Notes: a model not told the origin generated them from the letters alone. DNA of 64,000 nucleotides from Chitinophagales bacterium (GCA_025057275.1 JANWXQ010000004.1:1-64000); one strand, 5' to 3'. Shown: positions 42,491 through 51,987, counted from the stretch's first letter. Program-made: numbers and translations.

Positions 42491-43210
42491 GTGCGAGTCA
42501 GACTGTTTGTGCCGTGTTTTGTGGATCAATTATTCCCGCAAACGGCTTTTAATACGGTTAAAGTCCTGCGCAAAGCAGGTTGTGAAGTAGACTATTATCC
42601 GGAGCAAACCTGTTGTGGCCAACCGGCATTTAATGCCGGTTTCTGGGATGAAGCCAGACCTGTATGCGAAAAATTCATCCAGGACATGGCCGATGCGGAA
42701 TACGTGGTGGCGCCCAGCGGCAGTTGTGTGGGGTTTGTACGTAATTTTTATCAGGAGTTATTTGAAAATTCTGCCCTGCACAATGAAAGCCGGCAATTGG
42801 GCCGCCGGATCTATGAGCTGTCGGAGTTTTTGGTGGATGTATTGCAGCTCAGCGATCTGGGAGCACGGCTTCACGGCGTAGCCACTTACCACGATGCCTG
42901 CGGGGCTTTACGCGAATGCCGGATCCGCGAAGCGCCGCGACGATTGTTGGCTCATGTTCAGGGCCTGGAACTGCGCGAAATGAACGACAGCGAAAGCTGC
43001 TGCGGCTTTGGAGGCACTTTTGCGGTCAAGTTTGATGAAATATCTGCCGCTATGGCGCATCAGAAAATGGAGCAGGCCGCAGCCACCGAAGCACAGTTTG
43101 TGATTTCCACCGACTACAGTTGTCTGATGCACCTGGACGGGTATTTTAAAAAACAGGGCAGTAGGTTGCAGGTCATGCATCTGGCCGATGTACTGGCCAG
43201 CGGCTGGTAA
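42491..43210 (+). CDS. CCG-domain Fe-S oxidoreductase subunit (LutA/YkgE-like)
   Basis: A 239-residue protein with two cysteine-rich CCG motifs: YYPEQTCCGQPAFNAG near residue 37 and NDSESCCGFGGTFAVKF near residue 170. It also has MRVRLFVPCFVDQLFP. This is the pattern of LutA/YkgE, one of three subunits for lactate oxidation. The partners LutB and LutC are not next to it. The start is GTG, preceded by a TAATTTCG element at 42467-42474. It may act with proteins encoded elsewhere. Its stop is three bases from that of the converging DUF2490 gene. Confidence 0.9.
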   Translation: MRVRLFVPCFVDQLFPQTAFNTVKVLRKAGCEVDYYPEQTCCGQPAFNAGFWDEARPVCEKFIQDMADAEYVVAPSGSCVGFVRNFYQELFENSALHNESRQLGRRIYELSEFLVDVLQLSDLGARLHGVATYHDACGALRECRIREAPRRLLAHVQGLELREMNDSESCCGFGGTFAVKFDEISAAMAHQKMEQAAATEAQFVISTDYSCLMHLDGYFKKQGSRLQVMHLADVLASGW

Positions 43211-43213
43211 TCA

Positions 43214-43885
43214 TTATAGATCTACCTCATAACTCAGGACCAGACAGATGGCCCGGAAAGGCGGAGCCTGATTGAATTCGTATTCGTACTGAAGATGTCC
43301 CTTCAGGGTATGATCTTTATTGATGAGCCAGTCGGTACCGGCCTGCAAACGGATTTCATCGAACTCATTTCCTTCAAAATGAAAAATGTGGTAAAAAAAT
43401 TCGGCGTTGATGTTGGGCCGCCATTTTTTGTTGATCCGGTAGCCTGAGGCTATCCGGGTGCGGATGTAGGTCTGGTCAGGGCCGGGACGGAACTCATGCT
43501 GCAGCCGCAGCCTGAGTCCAAAGTCCAGGTCGGAGGGTCGCCAGCGGAAATTGGTTTCTTCGTAGATACGATGGCTGATCCCGGACGGCCGGATCAGCAA
43601 ACGGTAATGAGCGGCAGTTGCCACCCAGTCAGCCGGGCGGAATCGGGCAGCAGCATCGGTGTACAACACGCGCAACCTGGAAGAATTGTCGCGCAGGCGC
43701 AATTCTTCCTCTACCTGCAGACGCCAGCGGGAAGAAAGGTCTTTTCGCAGTGTAATGCTGTGCCACGTCTGAAAATCGGGAGGCTGGCCCTGAGCTGATG
43801 CTGACAGAACCCATAAGGCAAAAAGAACACAGCGCACCACGCATGCACTCCGACGTTTGCCGTTGCCTGCTCCAGAGCCACTCAT
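43214..43885 (-). CDS. DUF2490 outer membrane barrel-like protein
   Basis: A 223-residue protein. The ATG at 43885 gives a long charged n-region (KRRSACVVRC) and then VLFALWVLSASAQ as signal peptide. Mature DUF2490 features are DFQTWHSITLRKDLSSRWRLQVEEELRL (in pieces: WHSITLRKDLSSRW; VEEELRLRDN), YEETNFRWRPSD and an even series of amphipathic strands ending in CLVLSYEVDL. It is probably a porin-like barrel. It is the last gene of the six-gene operon, 31 bases after DUF4956. The longer frame would overlap that gene. Confidence 0.85.
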   Translation of the reverse strand: MSGSGAGNGKRRSACVVRCVLFALWVLSASAQGQPPDFQTWHSITLRKDLSSRWRLQVEEELRLRDNSSRLRVLYTDAAARFRPADWVATAAHYRLLIRPSGISHRIYEETNFRWRPSDLDFGLRLRLQHEFRPGPDQTYIRTRIASGYRINKKWRPNINAEFFYHIFHFEGNEFDEIRLQAGTDWLINKDHTLKGHLQYEYEFNQAPPFRAICLVLSYEVDL

Positions 43886-43916
43886 AACACACGAGTCAAC
43901 TGGTGCGGAGCGGCTT

Positions 43917-44537
43917 CTACTCAAAATAAAAAATGCGGATGCGGGCGATGTCGCGCATAAAATCAATGCGACCGATTTCCACCCGGTGCACATTCAGACC
44001 GGTGCGCTCCTTCAGATCGGCCAGTAACTTTTCGTAGTTTTCCGGTCTGATGTTTTCTATTTTTTCGTAAAGTATAACCTTGCTGGATGCATGCCGTACC
44101 AGCCAGATGCGTTCCATGACAAAGGTCATGATCACCACCGAAAGGTTGGCGATGATTACTTCCAACACACTGACGTGTTCGGTACTTAATGCGTTGATGA
44201 CGGCAATGCTAATGACCAGAAACAGATAGGTCATATCCATCACCGCCACATTCATAGTGCGGTAGCGAAGTATGGAAAATACCGCAAACAAGCCAAAGGC
44301 CACCCCCAGTTGCAGATGGGTGTTTTTCAGCATATAGCACAAAACAAAAATGATGATATTGAAGAGAAAATATGTAAAAAAATAATCTTTGTTTTTGTGA
44401 ACCGGATAATAAATCCAGCGAATAACCACATAGGCGATAAGCAGGTTAAACAGAAAACGAATAAGAAAATCTGCAAGTGCCGGTGCGTTCACCAGCGTTG
44501 GCACTGTATAGCTCTCAAGCAACAGCATCATGGGCAA
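43917..44537 (-). CDS. DUF4956 integral membrane protein
   Basis: A 206-residue inner membrane protein with four to five helices (FLIRFLFNLLIAYVVIRWIYY, FFTYFLFNIIIFVLCYML, GVAFGLFAVFSILRYRTM, MTYLFLVISIAVINAL). The conserved DUF4956 core is FAVFSILRYRTMN, followed by a cytosolic tail (LKERTGLNVHRVEIGRIDF). DUF4956 genes often sit next to VTC-type polyphosphate-polymerase-like genes; here the start overlaps the VTC gene by 23 bases. The role is unknown; an involvement in polyphosphate or product export is inference. Confidence 0.9.
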   Translation of the reverse strand: MPMMLLLESYTVPTLVNAPALADFLIRFLFNLLIAYVVIRWIYYPVHKNKDYFFTYFLFNIIIFVLCYMLKNTHLQLGVAFGLFAVFSILRYRTMNVAVMDMTYLFLVISIAVINALSTEHVSVLEVIIANLSVVIMTFVMERIWLVRHASSKVILYEKIENIRPENYEKLLADLKERTGLNVHRVEIGRIDFMRDIARIRIFYFE

Positions 44538-45318
44538 AGCGGCCGTTTAGCAGTTTGCGAATATAGAGGAGCCTTGGCTTGAACCGGTTATGCTTTATCC
44601 CCGGATGGGTCAGCACAATGCCCATGCAGTATTTGCTGAAGGTGGTGGGAAAAATGCGCTGCCGCAGCATCAGCGAGCGGAAGGGACTATGGTAGGCGTG
44701 ATGTTCCTGCTTGATTTCGGCAATTACCAGATCGGACATGGGCCGTTCGTGTCCGTTGCCGGAATAGCCAAGCCCAAAATCAATGGTAATCCGTTCCGTA
44801 TAATCCGGACAAACCAATGTGATGCGTTGAAACTGCACCAGCAGGGACGGCTCCAGCTTGCGGGCAACGGCAATTCCGCTGCGATGCAAAAAACCAATCT
44901 GTTCGTTGTCCAATGTCACATCCATCCGGTCGGCAGGCAGGCGCAACTTATAGGTGTGTCCCTTATTGGACTTTTTTTTCACCTCCAGAAAACAATGTCC
45001 GGTGTTTTCGTAGCGGCGAAAACGCACCTTAAAACGCTGACCGCGATCGGTAAGGTGCATGACGTAACAATCCAGTTCCGGCGTATCATAATATAAGTTA
45101 TCGTAGCGGCAACTGCGCTGAAGTCCCGTTTGCAACACGCGATAGTGAGCCTGTAGCCGGGGCAGGCAACGCATCAACTGATTAAACGAAAACAAATACT
45201 TTTCATCAAACCGGTTCAGCATATGCAATGAGCCCAGCTCCGTAAGGCTGAGCATGGCATAAGGCTCCAGCTGCTGCCGTACCGCATCGATCAAGCGCTC
45301 TTCAGCGATAATACTCAT
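44515..45318 (-). CDS. VTC-domain protein (polyphosphate-polymerase-like)
   Basis: A 267-residue cytosolic protein of the triphosphate-tunnel fold, related to the catalytic domain of yeast Vtc4, which builds polyphosphate from ATP. Visible tunnel elements are NRFDEKYLFS, YDTPELDCYVMHLTDRGQ, KVRFRRYE, the FLEVKKKSNKG strand, TIDFGLGY and DLVIAEIKQEH. The charged E/K/R strands match the family. Enzyme activity was not shown for most bacterial members. It overlaps its neighbours by 17 and 23 bases, so it is in a tight operon with DUF4956. Confidence 0.9.
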   Translation of the reverse strand: MSIIAEERLIDAVRQQLEPYAMLSLTELGSLHMLNRFDEKYLFSFNQLMRCLPRLQAHYRVLQTGLQRSCRYDNLYYDTPELDCYVMHLTDRGQRFKVRFRRYENTGHCFLEVKKKSNKGHTYKLRLPADRMDVTLDNEQIGFLHRSGIAVARKLEPSLLVQFQRITLVCPDYTERITIDFGLGYSGNGHERPMSDLVIAEIKQEHHAYHSPFRSLMLRQRIFPTTFSKYCMGIVLTHPGIKHNRFKPRLLYIRKLLNGRFAHDAVA

Positions 45319-45700
45319 ACGTTATCTTTTTTTCCGATTTGATCCGGCCTGATCCGTCGGTAACGACTCTGCGGGTGCGGTTGCCGTTGGCGTCGTATTC
45401 GTAGGTTCGGATTTCGCTGACTTTGCCGTCGGCACCGAAGTGAGTTTCCTTGGTTTTGAGACCTTGCGGGTTGTACTCGTACACCATGCGGTTTTTCAGC
45501 TTGCCGTCGCTATCGTACTCCTCTTCTTCCAGGAGCCAACCTTGTTCGTTGAACAGACGCTGGGCAGCCAACAGTTCCTGCCCTTTGCCGGTGATCTGAT
45601 ATTCGGTTATGCGCCGGATCGGGCGGTCGCTTGCAGTTTGGGCATCAGCGGCGGCTGCGAGTAACAACACGAGCAGAATCGGCCAGTAACGTCGGATCAT
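45302..45700 (-). CDS. Small secreted protein with YD/YwqK-like repeats
   Basis: A 132-residue protein with signal peptide MIRRYWPILLVLLLAAAADA. The mature part consists of three to four short beta-hairpin repeats of the form EYDSDGKLKNRMVYEYNPQG / YDANGNRTRRVVTDGSG, like those of YD/RHS or the MORN-type YwqK antitoxin family. It probably lies in the periplasm. It overlaps the gene before it by four bases and the VTC gene by 17. I know no function for it. Confidence 0.82.
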   Translation of the reverse strand: MIRRYWPILLVLLLAAAADAQTASDRPIRRITEYQITGKGQELLAAQRLFNEQGWLLEEEEYDSDGKLKNRMVYEYNPQGLKTKETHFGADGKVSEIRTYEYDANGNRTRRVVTDGSGRIKSEKKITYEYYR

Positions 45701-46104
45701 TTTCGGATAATAAGGTCGGGCAGTTCAAGCACGGAGCGGTTTCGCGTAATTTCTCCGCTGACAAACACGGCAGTAATCTGGCCGGGACAGGTGTCGCATT
45801 CCGAATAGGCAAATACGGTATACCGTCCTTTTTTCAGGTAGCGGAATTCGTAAGAGCCATCGTAGCTGGTGCGCACGTCATCGCTGTAGAAGGCATCATC
45901 ACCGTAAACCAGGTATACACGCTCTTCAGGAACGTAATATTCCCGGATGAATTGATCTCCGGAATAATCGCGGGCCAACACCTTGCCGCGCAGGGTACTG
46001 GTGCCGCCTTCGCCCGCCTCGGGCTCGCAACCGGTCAGCACCAACGCAACAAAAATGCCTAATCCAACTGTTGCCAGGACGAAGCGGCTTGGATGACCCA
46101 TCAA
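45697..46104 (-). CDS. Hypothetical lipoprotein with beta-sandwich (carboxypeptidase regulatory-like) domain
   Basis: A 135-residue putative lipoprotein with lipobox VLTGC (C26). After an acidic linker it has LRGKVLARDYSGDQF ... SYDGSYEFRYLKKGRYTVFAYS, the pattern of a CarboxypepD_reg/CNA-B-like beta-sandwich. Four cysteines or fewer lie in the mature part (CDTC). It overlaps both neighbours by four bases (ATGA), so translation is coupled. The role is unknown. Confidence 0.83.
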   Translation of the reverse strand: MMGHPSRFVLATVGLGIFVALVLTGCEPEAGEGGTSTLRGKVLARDYSGDQFIREYYVPEERVYLVYGDDAFYSDDVRTSYDGSYEFRYLKKGRYTVFAYSECDTCPGQITAVFVSGEITRNRSVLELPDLIIRK

Positions 46105-47384
46105 CGCATCAGTTTTATGGTTTGCATTCCTGCACTTCCGCTGGCCTGTATGAAGTAAATACCTGATGAAAGATGAAGAATAGGAATCTGATGCTGACCG
46201 GTGGTGAGCAACCGGGAATGGAGTACGGCACCGTCAGTGCGGATCAGGCGCAGCAAAAGGTGCTCTCCTGCAGGAATGCTGACGTCCAACACTCCATTAG
46301 GTAGCAGCTGCATGAGCGTAGAAGAAGAGGATGGGTTGGGTATGGCGGTTATGCAGTCCGGGTCGTAAGCATAACCGGGTGAACCCCCCGGGCAGCCCTG
46401 AAACCAGGCTTTGGGATTGTTCACATTCCAGGTGGTGTCCGAAAACTCCAGCGTATAGCTTCCTCCGTCAGGACCCTTGGGCCAATCGCCGGCATCGTTA
46501 TAAACCATAGAAAACCGCAATGTGCCGGTGAAATCAAACAAGCGAATGAGTTCGCCGTCGTTGCTCAGGTTGAAGTTGAAATTGCCATAGCGGTTAGGTG
46601 TACCGGGATGCTGCGCATCAAACAAGGTGGTGTCGCCCACCAGCACCACACGCCCCTGAGGTGGCAGTTGCAGGTTCTGCGGCAGGTAAAAGGCATTGCT
46701 TTCTTTACTGTCTTTGAAACTCCAGGTGCTCAGGTTTACGTAGGTAGGCCCGCGGTTGTACACTTCCACCCATTCGCCTGCATTGAGCAGCGGATTGGGG
46801 TTGTAATTGATTTCAGAAAAAATAATTTGTTCGGAACAGGGAGTAAATGGCATTCCGGGTGAGCCGAACATGCAGCCTACAAACCAGCTGTTCGGGTCGT
46901 TGGGATTCAGCGCCACGCTGCGTAACTCCAGCGTTCGCCCGCTGCCGTCGGCGGCAGGATGCCAGGGCAGACTGTCGGCGTATTCGAAGAATACCATCTG
47001 ATTGCCCTGCGCATCGTAAAGGCGAACCTGGTCGCCGTCGTTGCCCAGTCCGAAATTGAAGGTGCCGATGTAGTTGCTGATGAATGGATGGCGATTCTTG
47101 AATTTCTGACTGTCGTTGACGACCACCAGCCGGGCCCCCGGAGCCAGTTGGACAGTGGCCGGAAATACAAATTGATGCTGGTTATTGTCGTCTTTAAACA
47201 CCCAGTTGGCCAGGGAAATCGTAGTGGAGCCGTAATTGTACAGTTCAAACCAGTCGCCTGATGTGGTCGTGGAATCGGAGTTGAAATTGACTTCAGTTAC
47301 GGCTATGCTTTGCGCACCCGCATTCAACCACAGACAAAAGGCGACTAACTCAATTACGGTCCGGAAAATACCCCTCAACGACAA
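46101..47384 (-). CDS. Secreted protein with two lamin-tail domains and T9SS sorting domain
   Basis: A 427-residue protein with a signal peptide ending near NAGAQ. Two lamin-tail (LTD) domains cover about residues 30-175 (VTEVNFNSDSTTTSGDWFELYN ... in part WFELYNYGSTTISLANW) and 180-340 (FSEINYNPNPLLNAGEWVEVYN, in part EWVEVYNRGPTYVNL). The end (IPNPSSSSTLMQLLPNG ... LSSGIYFIQASG) is a type A sorting domain. It is the first gene of the operon with the VTC and DUF4956 genes. LTD domains are known beside CotH-type surface proteins; the start is the ATG at 47384, 23 bases after the -7 element. Confidence 0.88.
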   Translation of the reverse strand: MSLRGIFRTVIELVAFCLWLNAGAQSIAVTEVNFNSDSTTTSGDWFELYNYGSTTISLANWVFKDDNNQHQFVFPATVQLAPGARLVVVNDSQKFKNRHPFISNYIGTFNFGLGNDGDQVRLYDAQGNQMVFFEYADSLPWHPAADGSGRTLELRSVALNPNDPNSWFVGCMFGSPGMPFTPCSEQIIFSEINYNPNPLLNAGEWVEVYNRGPTYVNLSTWSFKDSKESNAFYLPQNLQLPPQGRVVLVGDTTLFDAQHPGTPNRYGNFNFNLSNDGELIRLFDFTGTLRFSMVYNDAGDWPKGPDGGSYTLEFSDTTWNVNNPKAWFQGCPGGSPGYAYDPDCITAIPNPSSSSTLMQLLPNGVLDVSIPAGEHLLLRLIRTDGAVLHSRLLTTGQHQIPILHLSSGIYFIQASGSAGMQTIKLMR

Positions 47385-47391
47385 GCAGCAG

Positions 47392-47411
47392 TTTGAACGT
47401 CAGCGTTCAAA
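47392..47411. promoter_or_regulatory. Perfect 8+8 bp palindrome, operator candidate
   Basis: TTTGAACG-TCAG-CGTTCAAA. The right arm overlaps the -7 element of the operon (47408-47415, minus strand), and the expected start of transcription lies in the spacer. A dimeric repressor here would block the operon. The divergent HU-like gene starts 45 bases away. Confidence 0.55.
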
Positions 47412-47415
47412 GTTA
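47408..47415 (-). promoter_or_regulatory. -7 promoter element (TAACTTTG) of the VTC operon
   Basis: TAnnTTTG on the minus strand ending 23 bases before the ATG at 47384. A TTG lies 13 bases upstream (47429-47431 on the minus strand). Confidence 0.6.
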
Positions 47416-47443
47416 TAGAATTTAACATCAACTTAACCTATGT

Positions 47444-47451
47444 TAGTTTTG
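47444..47451 (+). promoter_or_regulatory. -7 promoter element (TAGTTTTG), leaderless context
   Basis: TAnnTTTG ending four bases before the ATG at 47456. Together with the element at 47408-47415 it shows a divergent promoter pair. Confidence 0.6.
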
Positions 47452-47455
47452 GCTC

Positions 47456-47941
47456 ATGCAATGGGAACGGTGGTTTCAAGAGGCGTGGGATGAAGGGGTT
47501 ACCGTATCGTTGCCGCAGATTGGCGATTTCATTCCGGAGCGTCAGCCGGCAAGTGCTCATCCGGTGGAGCATGTTTTTCGTCCTCCGGGTGTGCGCATCC
47601 GCTTTTCACCCCAGTCCTGTGCATCAGAGGATTTTGCAACCTGGTTAGCCCGACGGGAGGGGATTCATGTGGAAATTCTTACCCAACACTTGAAGCAGGA
47701 AGCTAATAGGTTGCTGGAATGTTTGGATCAGGAAGGCAGTGCCCGTCTGTTTCATTGGGGCACCTTGAGGCGAAACGTGGAGCAGGAAGTGGTTTTTGAC
47801 AGTGCCGGATTTTTTTGCCCATCTCCCAGTTTCGGGCTTCCGGTTTTTTTCTGTCCTCCCTTGCGGGAAGCTGTTTCTCAGACACCGGCTCTCCAAACAA
47901 ACAAACGCAAGCCGCGACGGTTTCTTTGGATTCGTCTGTAA
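47456..47941 (+). CDS. HU-CCDC81-like domain protein
   Basis: A 161-residue cytosolic protein. The pattern VTVSLPQIGDFIPERQ, the HPVEHVFRPPGVRIRF segment and the later helix TQHLKQEANRLLECLD followed by FHWGTLRRN resemble the HU-CCDC81 fold known from Bacteroidota, an HU-like domain. In this phylum such domains often precede a membrane segment and SPOR domain; here the protein ends about 45 residues after the domain with a basic tail (NKRKPRRFLWIRL) and has no SPOR domain. DNA binding is not proven. It is divergent from the VTC operon and its stop is one base from the PorP/SprF gene's stop. Confidence 0.7.
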   Translation: MQWERWFQEAWDEGVTVSLPQIGDFIPERQPASAHPVEHVFRPPGVRIRFSPQSCASEDFATWLARREGIHVEILTQHLKQEANRLLECLDQEGSARLFHWGTLRRNVEQEVVFDSAGFFCPSPSFGLPVFFCPPLREAVSQTPALQTNKRKPRRFLWIRL

Positions 47942-47942
47942 G

Positions 47943-48953
47943 CTAATTGCCGAATCTGGGGTTGTAAATGCGCCCCGAAGAGATGCCTTTGAGTTTTCCT
48001 TTATAGGAAAGGGTTAGTTCCATGGCCCCTTGCCTGCTGTCCTGCCCGGCAAGCGGACCCATCATCAGGTCGTAACTCAGGCCGACGTCCAGGTCGCCCA
48101 TTCGGATGCCGATGGCAGGAATCAATGCATTACCGTAGCGCAGGTAGAGCGCACCGGCCAAGGCATAATTTGCTTCCAGCAGTGAGGCAAACGAATAACG
48201 GAGCTGACCTCCGGCCAGCAATTGACGTGAGGGTCCCTGAAAGGTTACAATGGCCACGGGAGTAAATTCCAGCTGCGGCCGCAACAGATAAGAGTAGCTT
48301 GCGGCCAAAACGGCTTTGGGTCGAATGGAAGAACGCCCATCGGAAGTAAATGCCAGATCCGGGGAGTTGGCATGAAAGAGAGCGAATCCTACATGGAGAT
48401 GAGAGGTGTCGCTGAGCAGGTGGTAAGCCAGGCCAAACGACAGGTCGGAGAAGTTTGTTTTCTCAAAACCGATGGCCTCGGAAGTGCCGCCGGTAGTAAA
48501 CGTTTCGTCCGTAGTCACTGATGCCAAATCCAGAGCGGTGTTGCCGGCGCCAAAGGAAACGGCAGCACCCATATAGTGTTGAAAGGCATGGCCAAAATTG
48601 TAATGAAAGGCACCGGTCAACGCAAAGGCAGAGGTGGTAAATTGTACAGCGCCTGCTTTATCGGCATTTCCGCTCAATGCCAGGCCGACGATATGGTTCT
48701 TGTTTTTGCCGGCAGGCAGGCTGGTGTTCAAGTGGGCGGCAATCGTTTTGAAGGGGTCGGTGAGCGTTTGCCACTGGCTCCGGTACATGCCGTTGAGCTG
48801 ATAGGTTCCGTCATGAAATCCTGCCCAGGCGGGGTTGATTTGCAGGGGCGTTTGAAACGGCTGCGACAGAAGCGCGTCCTGAGCGACGGCATCAGGCAAT
48901 GGCAGGCGTAGCAGCAGGGCGGCAAGCAGCGGTGGGAACAAATTTTTTTTCAT
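47943..48953 (-). CDS. PorP/SprF family T9SS outer membrane protein
   Basis: A 336-residue outer membrane barrel of the PorP/SprF family, which helps to secrete or anchor type B T9SS substrates. The start is the ATG at 48953 with signal peptide MKKNLFPPLLAALLLRL. The family hallmark QDALLSQPFQTPLQINPAWAGFHDG lies at the mature N-terminus (in part QINPAWAGFHDGTYQLN), and YRSQWQTL follows. It overlaps the type B adhesin gene by four bases (ATGA). The longer frame upstream lies inside that gene. Confidence 0.94.
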   Translation of the reverse strand: MKKNLFPPLLAALLLRLPLPDAVAQDALLSQPFQTPLQINPAWAGFHDGTYQLNGMYRSQWQTLTDPFKTIAAHLNTSLPAGKNKNHIVGLALSGNADKAGAVQFTTSAFALTGAFHYNFGHAFQHYMGAAVSFGAGNTALDLASVTTDETFTTGGTSEAIGFEKTNFSDLSFGLAYHLLSDTSHLHVGFALFHANSPDLAFTSDGRSSIRPKAVLAASYSYLLRPQLEFTPVAIVTFQGPSRQLLAGGQLRYSFASLLEANYALAGALYLRYGNALIPAIGIRMGDLDVGLSYDLMMGPLAGQDSRQGAMELTLSYKGKLKGISSGRIYNPRFGN

Positions 48954-51826
48954 CGCAGCAGGGTTACATTTCCAAAGCGATGGAGCACTTCTCCGTTCAG
49001 GCAACGGGCCTGCCATTCGTACAGATAGGTGCCGGCGGGCATGTCGGTTCCGTTGTAGCGGCCATCCCATCCCTTCCCGATACTGCCGGTTTCGAATATG
49101 CGCTTGCCCCAGCGGTCATACACCCTGAAATAAATCAGATCGTCCAGGCCAGTGCTGCGTACGTACAGCACATCGTTCTGACCGTTGCCGTTTGGGGTAA
49201 ATACATTAGGAACAAAAATAATGTGTTCATCGCAGCCCACAGTAACGGTAACTGTGTCGCTGGCCGTGCAGCCCAGGCTGTCGGTAACGGTGAGAGTAAA
49301 AACCGTGGTCTCCAGCAGGGTGGCCTCGGGATTCAGGCAATCGGCGCAGGACAGCACGTCATGAGGCGACCAGCTGTAGCTTCCCGGGCTGGCCACTGCC
49401 TGCAGATGAATCGGCGTGCCGGCAATGGCCTGAAGGTCCGGTCCTGCATTCACCAAGGGGGGAGGTTGTACCACCACAGTTACGGCCAAAGTGTCTGCTG
49501 CGCATAAATCGCTTACAACCACCTGATAGGTCGTGGTCATGTTTGGTGAGGCTGCGGGATCAGGCACCTGCGTGGCGCTCAGAGATTCCGATGGCCACCA
49601 CAGGTATTGCTGCCCCCCAACGGCCCACAGCTGCGCGCTGTCTCCCTGGCAGATAGCAGTGTCGGAGCACACGCTGGCCTGAAGCGGTGGATGCAGTTGG
49701 AGATGGACCTGAGCCGTATCCGAACAGAAATACTCGTTGCTGACGGTAACTGTGTAGGTGGTGTTGGAGTACACTGTGGCAACCGGATTGCTGATGTAGG
49801 CGTTGTTCAGTCCGGCCGAAGGCTGCCACGTGTAGTACAGGCCGCCGCTGGCCATAAGTTGGGCCGGCTGACCCGCGCATACCAGCGGAGGACCGGTGGC
49901 TATGGCCAGGGGTTTCGGATAGACGGAAACTTTATGCGTAGCAGTGTTCAGGCAGCCTTTGAAATCCATAACCGTTACGGTGTAGGTAGTGGTTTGCACG
50001 GGGAAGGCCAGTGTACTGAAGTTCAAAGGCATGTTGAGGCTTCCCGCCGGCTGCCAGCTGTAGTACAGGCCGCCAGTGGCATACATGACGATGGTGTCAC
50101 CGGCACACAGGGATGAATCAGCAAAAATGTAGGGCTGGGGCAGCGGCAGAACGATCACCAGAATGCTGTCTGTGTTCTGACAGCCGGAAACATCCGTTCC
50201 GGTTACGTAATACCATGTCGTGTCCACAGGAAAAGCCAGGGGGGCAGCGCTATTGGGATTGCTTAGGTAGGCACCGGGAGTCCAGAGGTAGAAAGAAGCG
50301 CCCGTGGCCGTGAGCTGTGCGGTATCACCCAGACATACATTGAGCAAGGGAGGGCCTGCGTCCACTGGTGGCAGATTGGTGACAGTAACGGTTAGCTGAT
50401 CGCTGAACGAACAACCGGAAAGCGATGCGGTCAGCGTGTAAGTGGTAGTCGCTGCGGGCGCCGCCTCCGGATTGGCAATAAAAGCATTGTCCAAGGAATT
50501 AGCCGGAGCCCAGGAGTAGGTGTCTGCTGCTGCGGCAGCCAATTGTACCGTATTGCCCTTGCACAAAGAAGTGTCGTTAGTCAGTATCAGATTCGGTGTG
50601 GCCACATAGCTGATCCAGACCGAATCGGTAGCGGCGCAGCCGTTGAAATCGGTTCCGGTAACGTAGAGCCATGTAGCCGCAGTACCGGTGAATTGAGTGA
50701 GCGCCTGGTTGGGCTGACTTACCCACGCCGTGGGATACCATTCATATTGTTCGGCTCCTGATGCCTGAAGCAGCAAAGGAGTGCCTTCGCAGGCTGTGGT
50801 ATCGTTACCGGCAGATACCTGGGGCAAGGGAAATACTTCCAGCCGAACCGAATCCGTAACAGAACAAAGCCCATTGCTTCCGGTAACGTAAAAAACCGTT
50901 GTTGATTGAGGCCAGGCCTGCGGAGCGAGGCTGGCGGTATCGCTGAGTCCTTCGGCGGGCCACCAAGTAGCTGAAACAACGTTTTGAACCCACAGCGAGA
51001 CGGTGTCGCCGGCGCAGAGGGAAGTATCCTCTGAAACGATCAGCTCAGGTAGTGCAAAAACCTGGGCAACAGAAGTGTCGGTTGCCGTGCATCCCAGCGA
51101 ATCAGTAACCTGGTATTGCAATAAAAAAGTTCCGGGCCCTGCCTGCTGGGCAAGAAACAAGCCTTGCTGAGTGACGGCGGTTCCCGAAAAAAAACCGCCG
51201 TCCGGTATGCCGGTTAATTGCACTGGCCCTTCGTTGCTGCAGATGCTGATGGCGTTTGGAAGAAGCGTGACTGACGGCAGGGGCTGAACGGTTACCTTCA
51301 GCGTGTCGCTGGACGTGCACCCGATGCTATCGGTAGCGGTAAGCACATATAGGGTAGTTGCATCGGGAAAGCACAGTGTTACCGGACTTTCGGGATCGCT
51401 CAGACCTACAGCGGGCTGCCAGGTGACGGTGCCCGGAGCTATAGCTGCAAGCGCGAGGGTGTCGCCCAAACACAGTGCAGTATCGTGACCGGCAAAAACG
51501 GTCGGTGGACAATACACAGTGAGCAGCAGCGAAGCGGTATCCTGCAGTCCGCCAGAATCGCTGACCACCACGGTGATATCATACAGGTTGCATTCGGCAG
51601 CCCAGAAGGTGAGGTGAAAGCTGGTGTCGCTCAGCGGTTCCTGATTGACGAACCAGGAAACCGTCAGCGGGCCGTTGCCCTGCGACAGGTTGTGCACCGC
51701 CACCGAATCCGGAGCACAAAAGGGCCCGCCGCTGATACTTAAGGAAGCTACCGGCTGGCTCCGGCAGGGCCACGCCGCAACCAGTATCGCAGCCAACGGC
51801 ACGAACAGGCGAATAGGTCCGCACAT
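48950..51826 (-). CDS. SprB-like repeat adhesin with T9SS type B sorting domain
   Basis: A 958-residue secreted protein built from about ten Ig/PKD-like units of some 75 residues, each with a core like DTSLCAGDTV.L.A.G...Y.W.PA..LS and ending TTTYTVTVTD..GC..TDTV.VTV.PLP. The C-terminal type B (gliding motility-associated) domain begins IIFVPNVFTPNGNGQNDVLYV and contains FRVYDRWGKRIFET and WDGRYNGTDMPAGTYLYEW. The signal peptide starts at the ATG at 51826 (MCGPIRLFVPLAAILVAAW); a TTG 14 codons up is the alternative. It pairs with the PorP/SprF gene. It resembles SprB-type surface adhesins in design but is much shorter. Confidence 0.92.
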   Translation of the reverse strand: MCGPIRLFVPLAAILVAAWPCRSQPVASLSISGGPFCAPDSVAVHNLSQGNGPLTVSWFVNQEPLSDTSFHLTFWAAECNLYDITVVVSDSGGLQDTASLLLTVYCPPTVFAGHDTALCLGDTLALAAIAPGTVTWQPAVGLSDPESPVTLCFPDATTLYVLTATDSIGCTSSDTLKVTVQPLPSVTLLPNAISICSNEGPVQLTGIPDGGFFSGTAVTQQGLFLAQQAGPGTFLLQYQVTDSLGCTATDTSVAQVFALPELIVSEDTSLCAGDTVSLWVQNVVSATWWPAEGLSDTASLAPQAWPQSTTVFYVTGSNGLCSVTDSVRLEVFPLPQVSAGNDTTACEGTPLLLQASGAEQYEWYPTAWVSQPNQALTQFTGTAATWLYVTGTDFNGCAATDSVWISYVATPNLILTNDTSLCKGNTVQLAAAAADTYSWAPANSLDNAFIANPEAAPAATTTYTLTASLSGCSFSDQLTVTVTNLPPVDAGPPLLNVCLGDTAQLTATGASFYLWTPGAYLSNPNSAAPLAFPVDTTWYYVTGTDVSGCQNTDSILVIVLPLPQPYIFADSSLCAGDTIVMYATGGLYYSWQPAGSLNMPLNFSTLAFPVQTTTYTVTVMDFKGCLNTATHKVSVYPKPLAIATGPPLVCAGQPAQLMASGGLYYTWQPSAGLNNAYISNPVATVYSNTTYTVTVSNEYFCSDTAQVHLQLHPPLQASVCSDTAICQGDSAQLWAVGGQQYLWWPSESLSATQVPDPAASPNMTTTYQVVVSDLCAADTLAVTVVVQPPPLVNAGPDLQAIAGTPIHLQAVASPGSYSWSPHDVLSCADCLNPEATLLETTVFTLTVTDSLGCTASDTVTVTVGCDEHIIFVPNVFTPNGNGQNDVLYVRSTGLDDLIYFRVYDRWGKRIFETGSIGKGWDGRYNGTDMPAGTYLYEWQARCLNGEVLHRFGNVTLLR

Positions 51827-51987
51827 ACCTGAGGCAGGAAATTTACGGCAACGGGCCGCAAACATCAAAAAGACAAAGGCCAGGAGAGCTGTTAGGGCTT
51901 TTCAAATAACATGAAAAGTAATAATATAAATGTTTTTTTCGTTGCCCTGTTGTTGTCCGTTAGGGCAGGTATATTCCCTTCCGTTGC

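Follow-up and report, generated by a model that had tools for sequence, protein, structure and literature searches.

A VTC-DUF4956 envelope operon of a Chitinophagales bacterium and its association with CotH kinases in Bacteroidota

What might an operon do that joins a polyphosphate-polymerase-like enzyme to a membrane protein, a lipoprotein, an outer-membrane barrel and a secreted protein? The question was raised by positions 43214-47384 (minus strand) of a 64,000-nt stretch of a Chitinophagales bacterium (JANWXQ010000004.1:1-64000, here the window; genome GCA_025057275.1, labelled G000). Six open reading frames (ORFs) lie there in the order lamin-tail domain (LTD) protein with a type IX secretion system (T9SS) tail, which occupies the first position (slot 1), small lipoprotein (LP), YD-repeat protein (YD), VTC, DUF4956 and DUF2490. 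When computed, the first four junctions proved to be overlaps of 4, 4, 17 and 23 bases and the last a gap of 31; an earlier note on this DNA had given the same six ORFs, coordinates, overlaps and domains, and ORF prediction, junction computation and Pfam/NCBIfam matches bore it out. We tentatively read the operon as the Bacteroidota envelope version of a system in which VTC and DUF4956 are grouped with CotH kinases; this is a real possibility, held with less than even confidence.

The VTC enzyme and the conserved gene set

Pfam VTC (PF09359, 1.5e-27) was the sole family match of the VTC protein. The VTC family profile matched Vtc4 (3g3q) with an E-value of 1e-10; a phmmer search of the PDB with the single protein gave no match. 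When the tunnel Lys/Arg/Glu residues of Vtc4 were aligned, a test set in advance by the earlier note, all nine checked positions were present and identical: Vtc4 K200, R264, R266, K281, K294, R361, R373, E426 and K458 correspond to K40, R99, R101, K114, K124, R165, R176, E201 and K229 of the window protein, where the residues other than R264, R266 and E426 are ones that we take to belong to the tunnel. Catalysis by the VTC protein is likely on this alignment, since the identical positions include R264, R266 and E426. The Vtc4 R264A/R266A/E426N complex was described as catalytically impaired (PMC9911596).

The VTC and DUF4956 genes share 44515-44537, confirming their adjacency, and the pairing claimed by the earlier note is a general one. 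A DUF4956 alignment was used as the query against 84,980 species genomes and the 80 best loci were kept, from records labelled Flavobacteriales, Bacteroidales, Chitinophagales and Kapabacteria. The gene immediately upstream of DUF4956 was VTC in 66 of 69 loci, DUF2490 was no more than four genes from the pair in 40 of 64, LP was found in 33/69, and YD, in the same slot as in the window, in 16/69. Within the order, 37 loci (counting the window) were compared: VTC adjoined DUF4956 in 35, LP was upstream of VTC in 29 and DUF2490 was nearby in 25, with flanking genes that varied. LP, YD and DUF2490 thus recur around VTC-DUF4956 in several Bacteroidota orders. The complete six-gene order is not unique to the window: it was present in four other genomes, all of the same family (G001, G003, G004 and G008; the LTD gene of G004 is cut by the contig end), and six further family members had the full order except YD. 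The arrangement is confirmed as real and not a product of chance, because other genera and orders keep it between different flanks. The coupling of the genes that had been claimed is supported as well.

Three observations on related loci stand apart from the operon. In a phylum sample of 393 genomes (62 with VTC, 331 without), 33 of 95 DUF4956 genomes had no VTC match (e.g., G083, G104, G239 and G244), and at one such locus (L123, G239) no VTC match was found near DUF4956; this means either that the partner has diverged beyond the reach of PF09359 or that DUF4956 is paired with something else. In loci with the longer VTC subtype of the phylum (L124-L142), a gene of about 350-390 aa usually adjoins VTC; the one that was scanned (L124:3966-5012) had a weak HlyD_3 match (7e-4) and may encode a periplasmic adaptor. 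A VTC-DUF4956 locus of Bacteroidota type (L171) was found in a record labelled Euryarchaeota archaeon (PBNL01000005.1), which is probably a mislabelled metagenome-assembled genome.

Association with CotH

In the phylum sample, DUF4956 was found in 62/62 VTC genomes, and CotH was found in 60 of these 62 versus 86 of the 331 without VTC (p = 1e-27; p = 3e-12 at the genus level). Among close relatives (61 genomes including the window's, 36 of them with VTC), all 36 VTC genomes carried CotH, and none of the 18 CotH-less genomes carried VTC. Two genera (g12 and g15) each had one genome with both genes and another with neither. The absence of PPK1 was considered as a reason for carrying VTC and was rejected, there being no association (p = 0.73).

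CotH also lies within the cluster itself (L108-L112, L119, L040 and L050). In the broad scan, it was in the same cluster in 15 of 50 loci with long flanks; with CotH at a density of about four genes per 3 Mb, chance alone would give roughly 2 percent. At L150 and L152 the order is CotH-LP-YD-VTC-DUF4956-DUF2490, so that CotH takes slot 1 of an otherwise window-like operon, and across loci this slot is repeatedly occupied by CotH, CotH+LTD or LTD-LTD. A second, diverged set was seen in G020 (L064:2284-6520), where a 978-aa beta-helix/CotH protein stands between DUF4956 and VTC; with this order, the CotH link holds for the paralogous set too.

Slot 1 of the window carries two LTD domains (Pfam, 1.7e-34) and a T9SS type A tail that scored 34.5 bits with TIGR04183 (NCBIfam; cut-off 23), Pfam's own tail model remaining below its cut-off (19.4 of 27). 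The Pfam scan found only LTD and the tail there, and no kinase domain PF08757. When whole genomes were searched with the window LTD protein, orthologues, a few stand-alone LTD-LTD genes and large CotH-carrying proteins were recovered. From residue 25 onward, slot 1 aligns with the last 400 residues of CotH proteins of 1342-1353 aa (G055 and G043) at 33-38 percent identity. Judged by this end-to-end alignment, slot 1 is the C-terminal region of CotH in detached, stand-alone form, a description that implies no order of origin. The LTD claims rest on Pfam and an LTD-only profile, since an initial profile picked up T9SS tails as well as kelch and SBBP proteins. The account in the earlier note was therefore partly right: pairing, coupling, conservation and tunnel residues stood, and the link to CotH kinases and the match of slot 1 to the CotH C-terminus had been missed.

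The sole CotH of G000 is on another contig (C57:28856-29848), outside the window and hence not in its cluster. This 920-aa LTD-CHB_HEX-CotH protein keeps two Asp (in NCDW and WDQD) at conserved CotH motif positions. We equate them with D228 and D251 of B. subtilis CotH, residues named in PMC7821199, by motif through the 5jd9 alignment and not by computed numbering.

A possible route through the envelope and its rivals

The AlphaFold2 model of the DUF4956 protein (pLDDT 86.6) has five predicted membrane helices and a C-terminal beta-alpha-beta-beta domain. In the family alignment R91 is invariant and R93 near-invariant; both lie between helices 3 and 4, which would be on the cytosolic side provided that the C-terminal domain is cytosolic. 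The MgtC family (PF02308) matched 3 of 48 DUF4956 homologues weakly (best E 0.0015) and did not match the window protein. For the B. thetaiotaomicron DUF4956-DUF2490 pair, iron regulation was not significant in the cited table. LP has a lipobox Cys26 that is invariant across 31 aligned homologues, a GxGG motif, and weak carboxypeptidase-regulatory-like similarity.

NanC and KdgM are outer-membrane porins for acidic sugars, and they were the closest PDB folds found by Foldseek for the DUF2490 model (2wjq, 2.8e-5; 4fqe, 6.1e-4), a predicted beta-barrel with pLDDT 94.0 and 11 strands listed. Identity to them is, however, about 11-14 percent and the TM-score about 0.5. Positions assigned to the lumen by alternation include the strongly conserved R63, R95, R106, R125, R142, R144 and R179, plus E162; the conserved Arg/Lys are spread over several strands. 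The modelled basic lumen suits a pore for an anionic product, identifying neither product nor direction. DUF2490 has been listed as a putative porin family only (TC 1.B.81; PMC4827864).

The components had been predicted to reach from the cytosol to the surface, and the analysis supports this. The route that we infer would begin with the cytosolic VTC protein polymerising polyphosphate from ATP. DUF4956 would partner VTC at the inner membrane and pass the chain outward, synthesis being coupled to export; LP and YD would work either in the periplasm or at the outer membrane, across which the anionic product, or shorter pieces of it, would pass through the DUF2490 barrel. The users of the product on the cell surface would be CotH kinases and LTD proteins secreted by the T9SS; in the simplest case it would donate phosphoryl groups in a place without ATP. 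In G000 the kinase (LTD-CotH, 920 aa) would be supplied from the other contig, slot 1 providing the LTD-LTD-T9SS part only. Use of the product by CotH/LTD proteins is the least certain step and is doubtful; that the whole is a bacterial polyphosphate export line supplying phosphoryl donor to extracytoplasmic CotH kinases is likewise somewhat unlikely as a complete statement.

Several points weigh against the route. CotH occurs without VTC in 86 genomes, CotH uses ATP in vitro (PMC7821199), and the co-occurrence tests were corrected for relatedness at the genus level only. A channel is not supported by fold, because Foldseek found no solved or channel-like relative of the DUF4956 model (best E 0.1), and its weak ACT-like matches were limited to the C-terminal domain. 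CotH is also not obligatory, since it was not detected in G291, which has VTC-DUF4956-DUF2490 (L114), or in the control Bacteroides ihuae, which has VTC and DUF4956. These two genomes would suit an account in which polyphosphate is made, exported and then displayed or stored beyond the inner membrane, or serves there in metal binding or adhesion, and CotH shares the setting without consuming the product. The same enzyme and membrane evidence fits that account, and a YHYH-domain protein with EF-hands, encoded between CotH and VTC at L110:7180-8280 (G426), hints at calcium at the surface of the system. However, the very strong VTC-CotH association, the shared operons and the match of slot 1 to CotH would then need another reason, and we regard display or storage as rather improbable.

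It is also unlikely, slightly more so, that VTC is an active tunnel enzyme with a product other than polyphosphate, so that some other phosphorylated group is made or transferred and then carried by CotH or LTD proteins. The triphosphate tunnel metalloenzyme (TTM) fold supports several reactions (PMC4641920); the window VTC is a distant relative of Vtc4, and G000 also encodes PPK1, the enzyme usually responsible for polyphosphate in bacteria. The nine identical tunnel positions and the single family match nevertheless speak for the Vtc4-like reaction. Least probable among these accounts, and distinctly unlikely, is that VTC and DUF4956 alone form the functional unit, with LTD, LP and YD as passengers in a compact genome and DUF2490 as a separate porin. 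The LTD, LP and YD genes are indeed missing from many loci, as the LP and YD counts above illustrate, and stand-alone LTD-LTD genes occur away from VTC in G002, G028 and G043. Yet in different orders, and between differing flanks, LP is the gene immediately before VTC or YD-VTC, and neither the recurrent filling of slot 1 nor the frequency of DUF2490 beside the pair suits mere passengers.

Our reading of the operon as an envelope version of the CotH-VTC-DUF4956 system places it beside known sets. CotH, polyphosphate polymerase, DUF4956 and DUF4832 are accessory genes beside pel clusters in streptococci and clostridia (PMC7112168), and NELoc-2 of C. perfringens carries VTC and CotH genes (PMC2879425). 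The association is thus already known, and the Bacteroidota form is a variant of it with LP, YD, DUF2490 and LTD; in the literature searched, the coverage of which was incomplete, we found no description of this form. Both sets group a VTC-type polymerase, DUF4956 and CotH. The Gram-positive one, however, has no outer membrane to cross, whereas the window has LP, YD, DUF2490, a detached LTD-LTD-T9SS slot 1 and CotH in trans, and no DUF4832 among its six genes. With the eukaryotic VTC complex (Vtc4 TTM plus the Vtc1/Vtc3/Vtc4 membrane domains), in which synthesis is coupled to translocation in yeast (PMC9911596), the operon shares a cytosolic TTM domain, identical tunnel residues and a membrane partner; it differs in having no SPX domain, and its partner is of an unrelated family, DUF4956, encoded by a separate gene and without a solved structural relative. 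Compared with CotH kinases such as B. subtilis CotH (5jd9), slot 1 itself lacks the kinase domain; what it shares is the LTD-LTD-T9SS region with which large CotH proteins of Bacteroidota terminate. The single CotH of G000 retains both equivalent Asp.

A kinase that is secreted must find its phosphate donor outside the cytoplasm, and for spore-coat CotH the source of ATP has been called an unanswered question (PMC7821199). That VTC and its membrane partner are almost confined to CotH genomes offers a concrete candidate route for such a donor and makes the question testable. If true, polyphosphate export would explain how secreted kinases work where ATP is absent. The operon also brings DUF4956, DUF2490, the small lipoprotein family and LTD proteins into a common context.

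Coordinates, starts and neighbouring genes

Coordinates of the six genes and a putative promoter element in the window, with the evidence for each assignment
Feature	Coordinates	Strand	Evidence
Slot 1: secreted LTD-LTD protein with T9SS type A tail, 427 aa	46101..47384	-	Pfam, TIGR04183, alignment to CotH C-termini
LP, small lipoprotein, 135 aa	45697..46104	-	Alignment of 31 homologues, weak Pfam matches, position upstream of VTC
YD/RHS-repeat protein, apparent signal peptide, 132 aa	45302..45700	-	Pfam RHS_repeat 1.5e-6
VTC-domain protein, polyphosphate-polymerase-like TTM enzyme, 267 aa	44515..45318	-	Pfam VTC 1.5e-27, Vtc4 match, tunnel residues
DUF4956 membrane protein, 206 aa	43917..44537	-	Pfam 3.7e-52, AlphaFold2 model
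DUF2490 protein, 223 aa, signal peptide and predicted beta-barrel	43214..43885	-	Pfam (PF10677) 4.2e-26, model
Putative Bacteroidota-type -7 promoter element TAACTTTG (TAnnTTTG), just upstream of slot 1	47408..47415	-	Motif match

Three genes (LTD, LP and DUF4956) have TTG starts, and the choice between TTG and a near ATG is uncertain; with the alternative ATGs of LP (46101) and DUF4956 (44531), the overlaps become 1 and 17 bases. The motif TAnnTTTG was found once on the minus strand of 43000-47700, as TAACTTTG, and the congener G001 reads TACTTTTG at the aligned position. The element is supporting evidence only, because about one such match is expected by chance. Sigma-70-like promoters showed no excess over the shuffled background, and terminator-like matches were scattered within genes and uninformative.

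A divergent gene with bacterial CCDC81-like HU domains (47456-47941, plus strand) shares a short intergenic region with the operon; it is kept beside the operon in the congener and not in other genera. Further along (47943-51868, minus strand), a PorP/SprF-like gene lies beside one that encodes a secreted protein of 972 aa, which has repeats and a gliding/T9SS-type C-terminus; such pairs are common in Bacteroidota.

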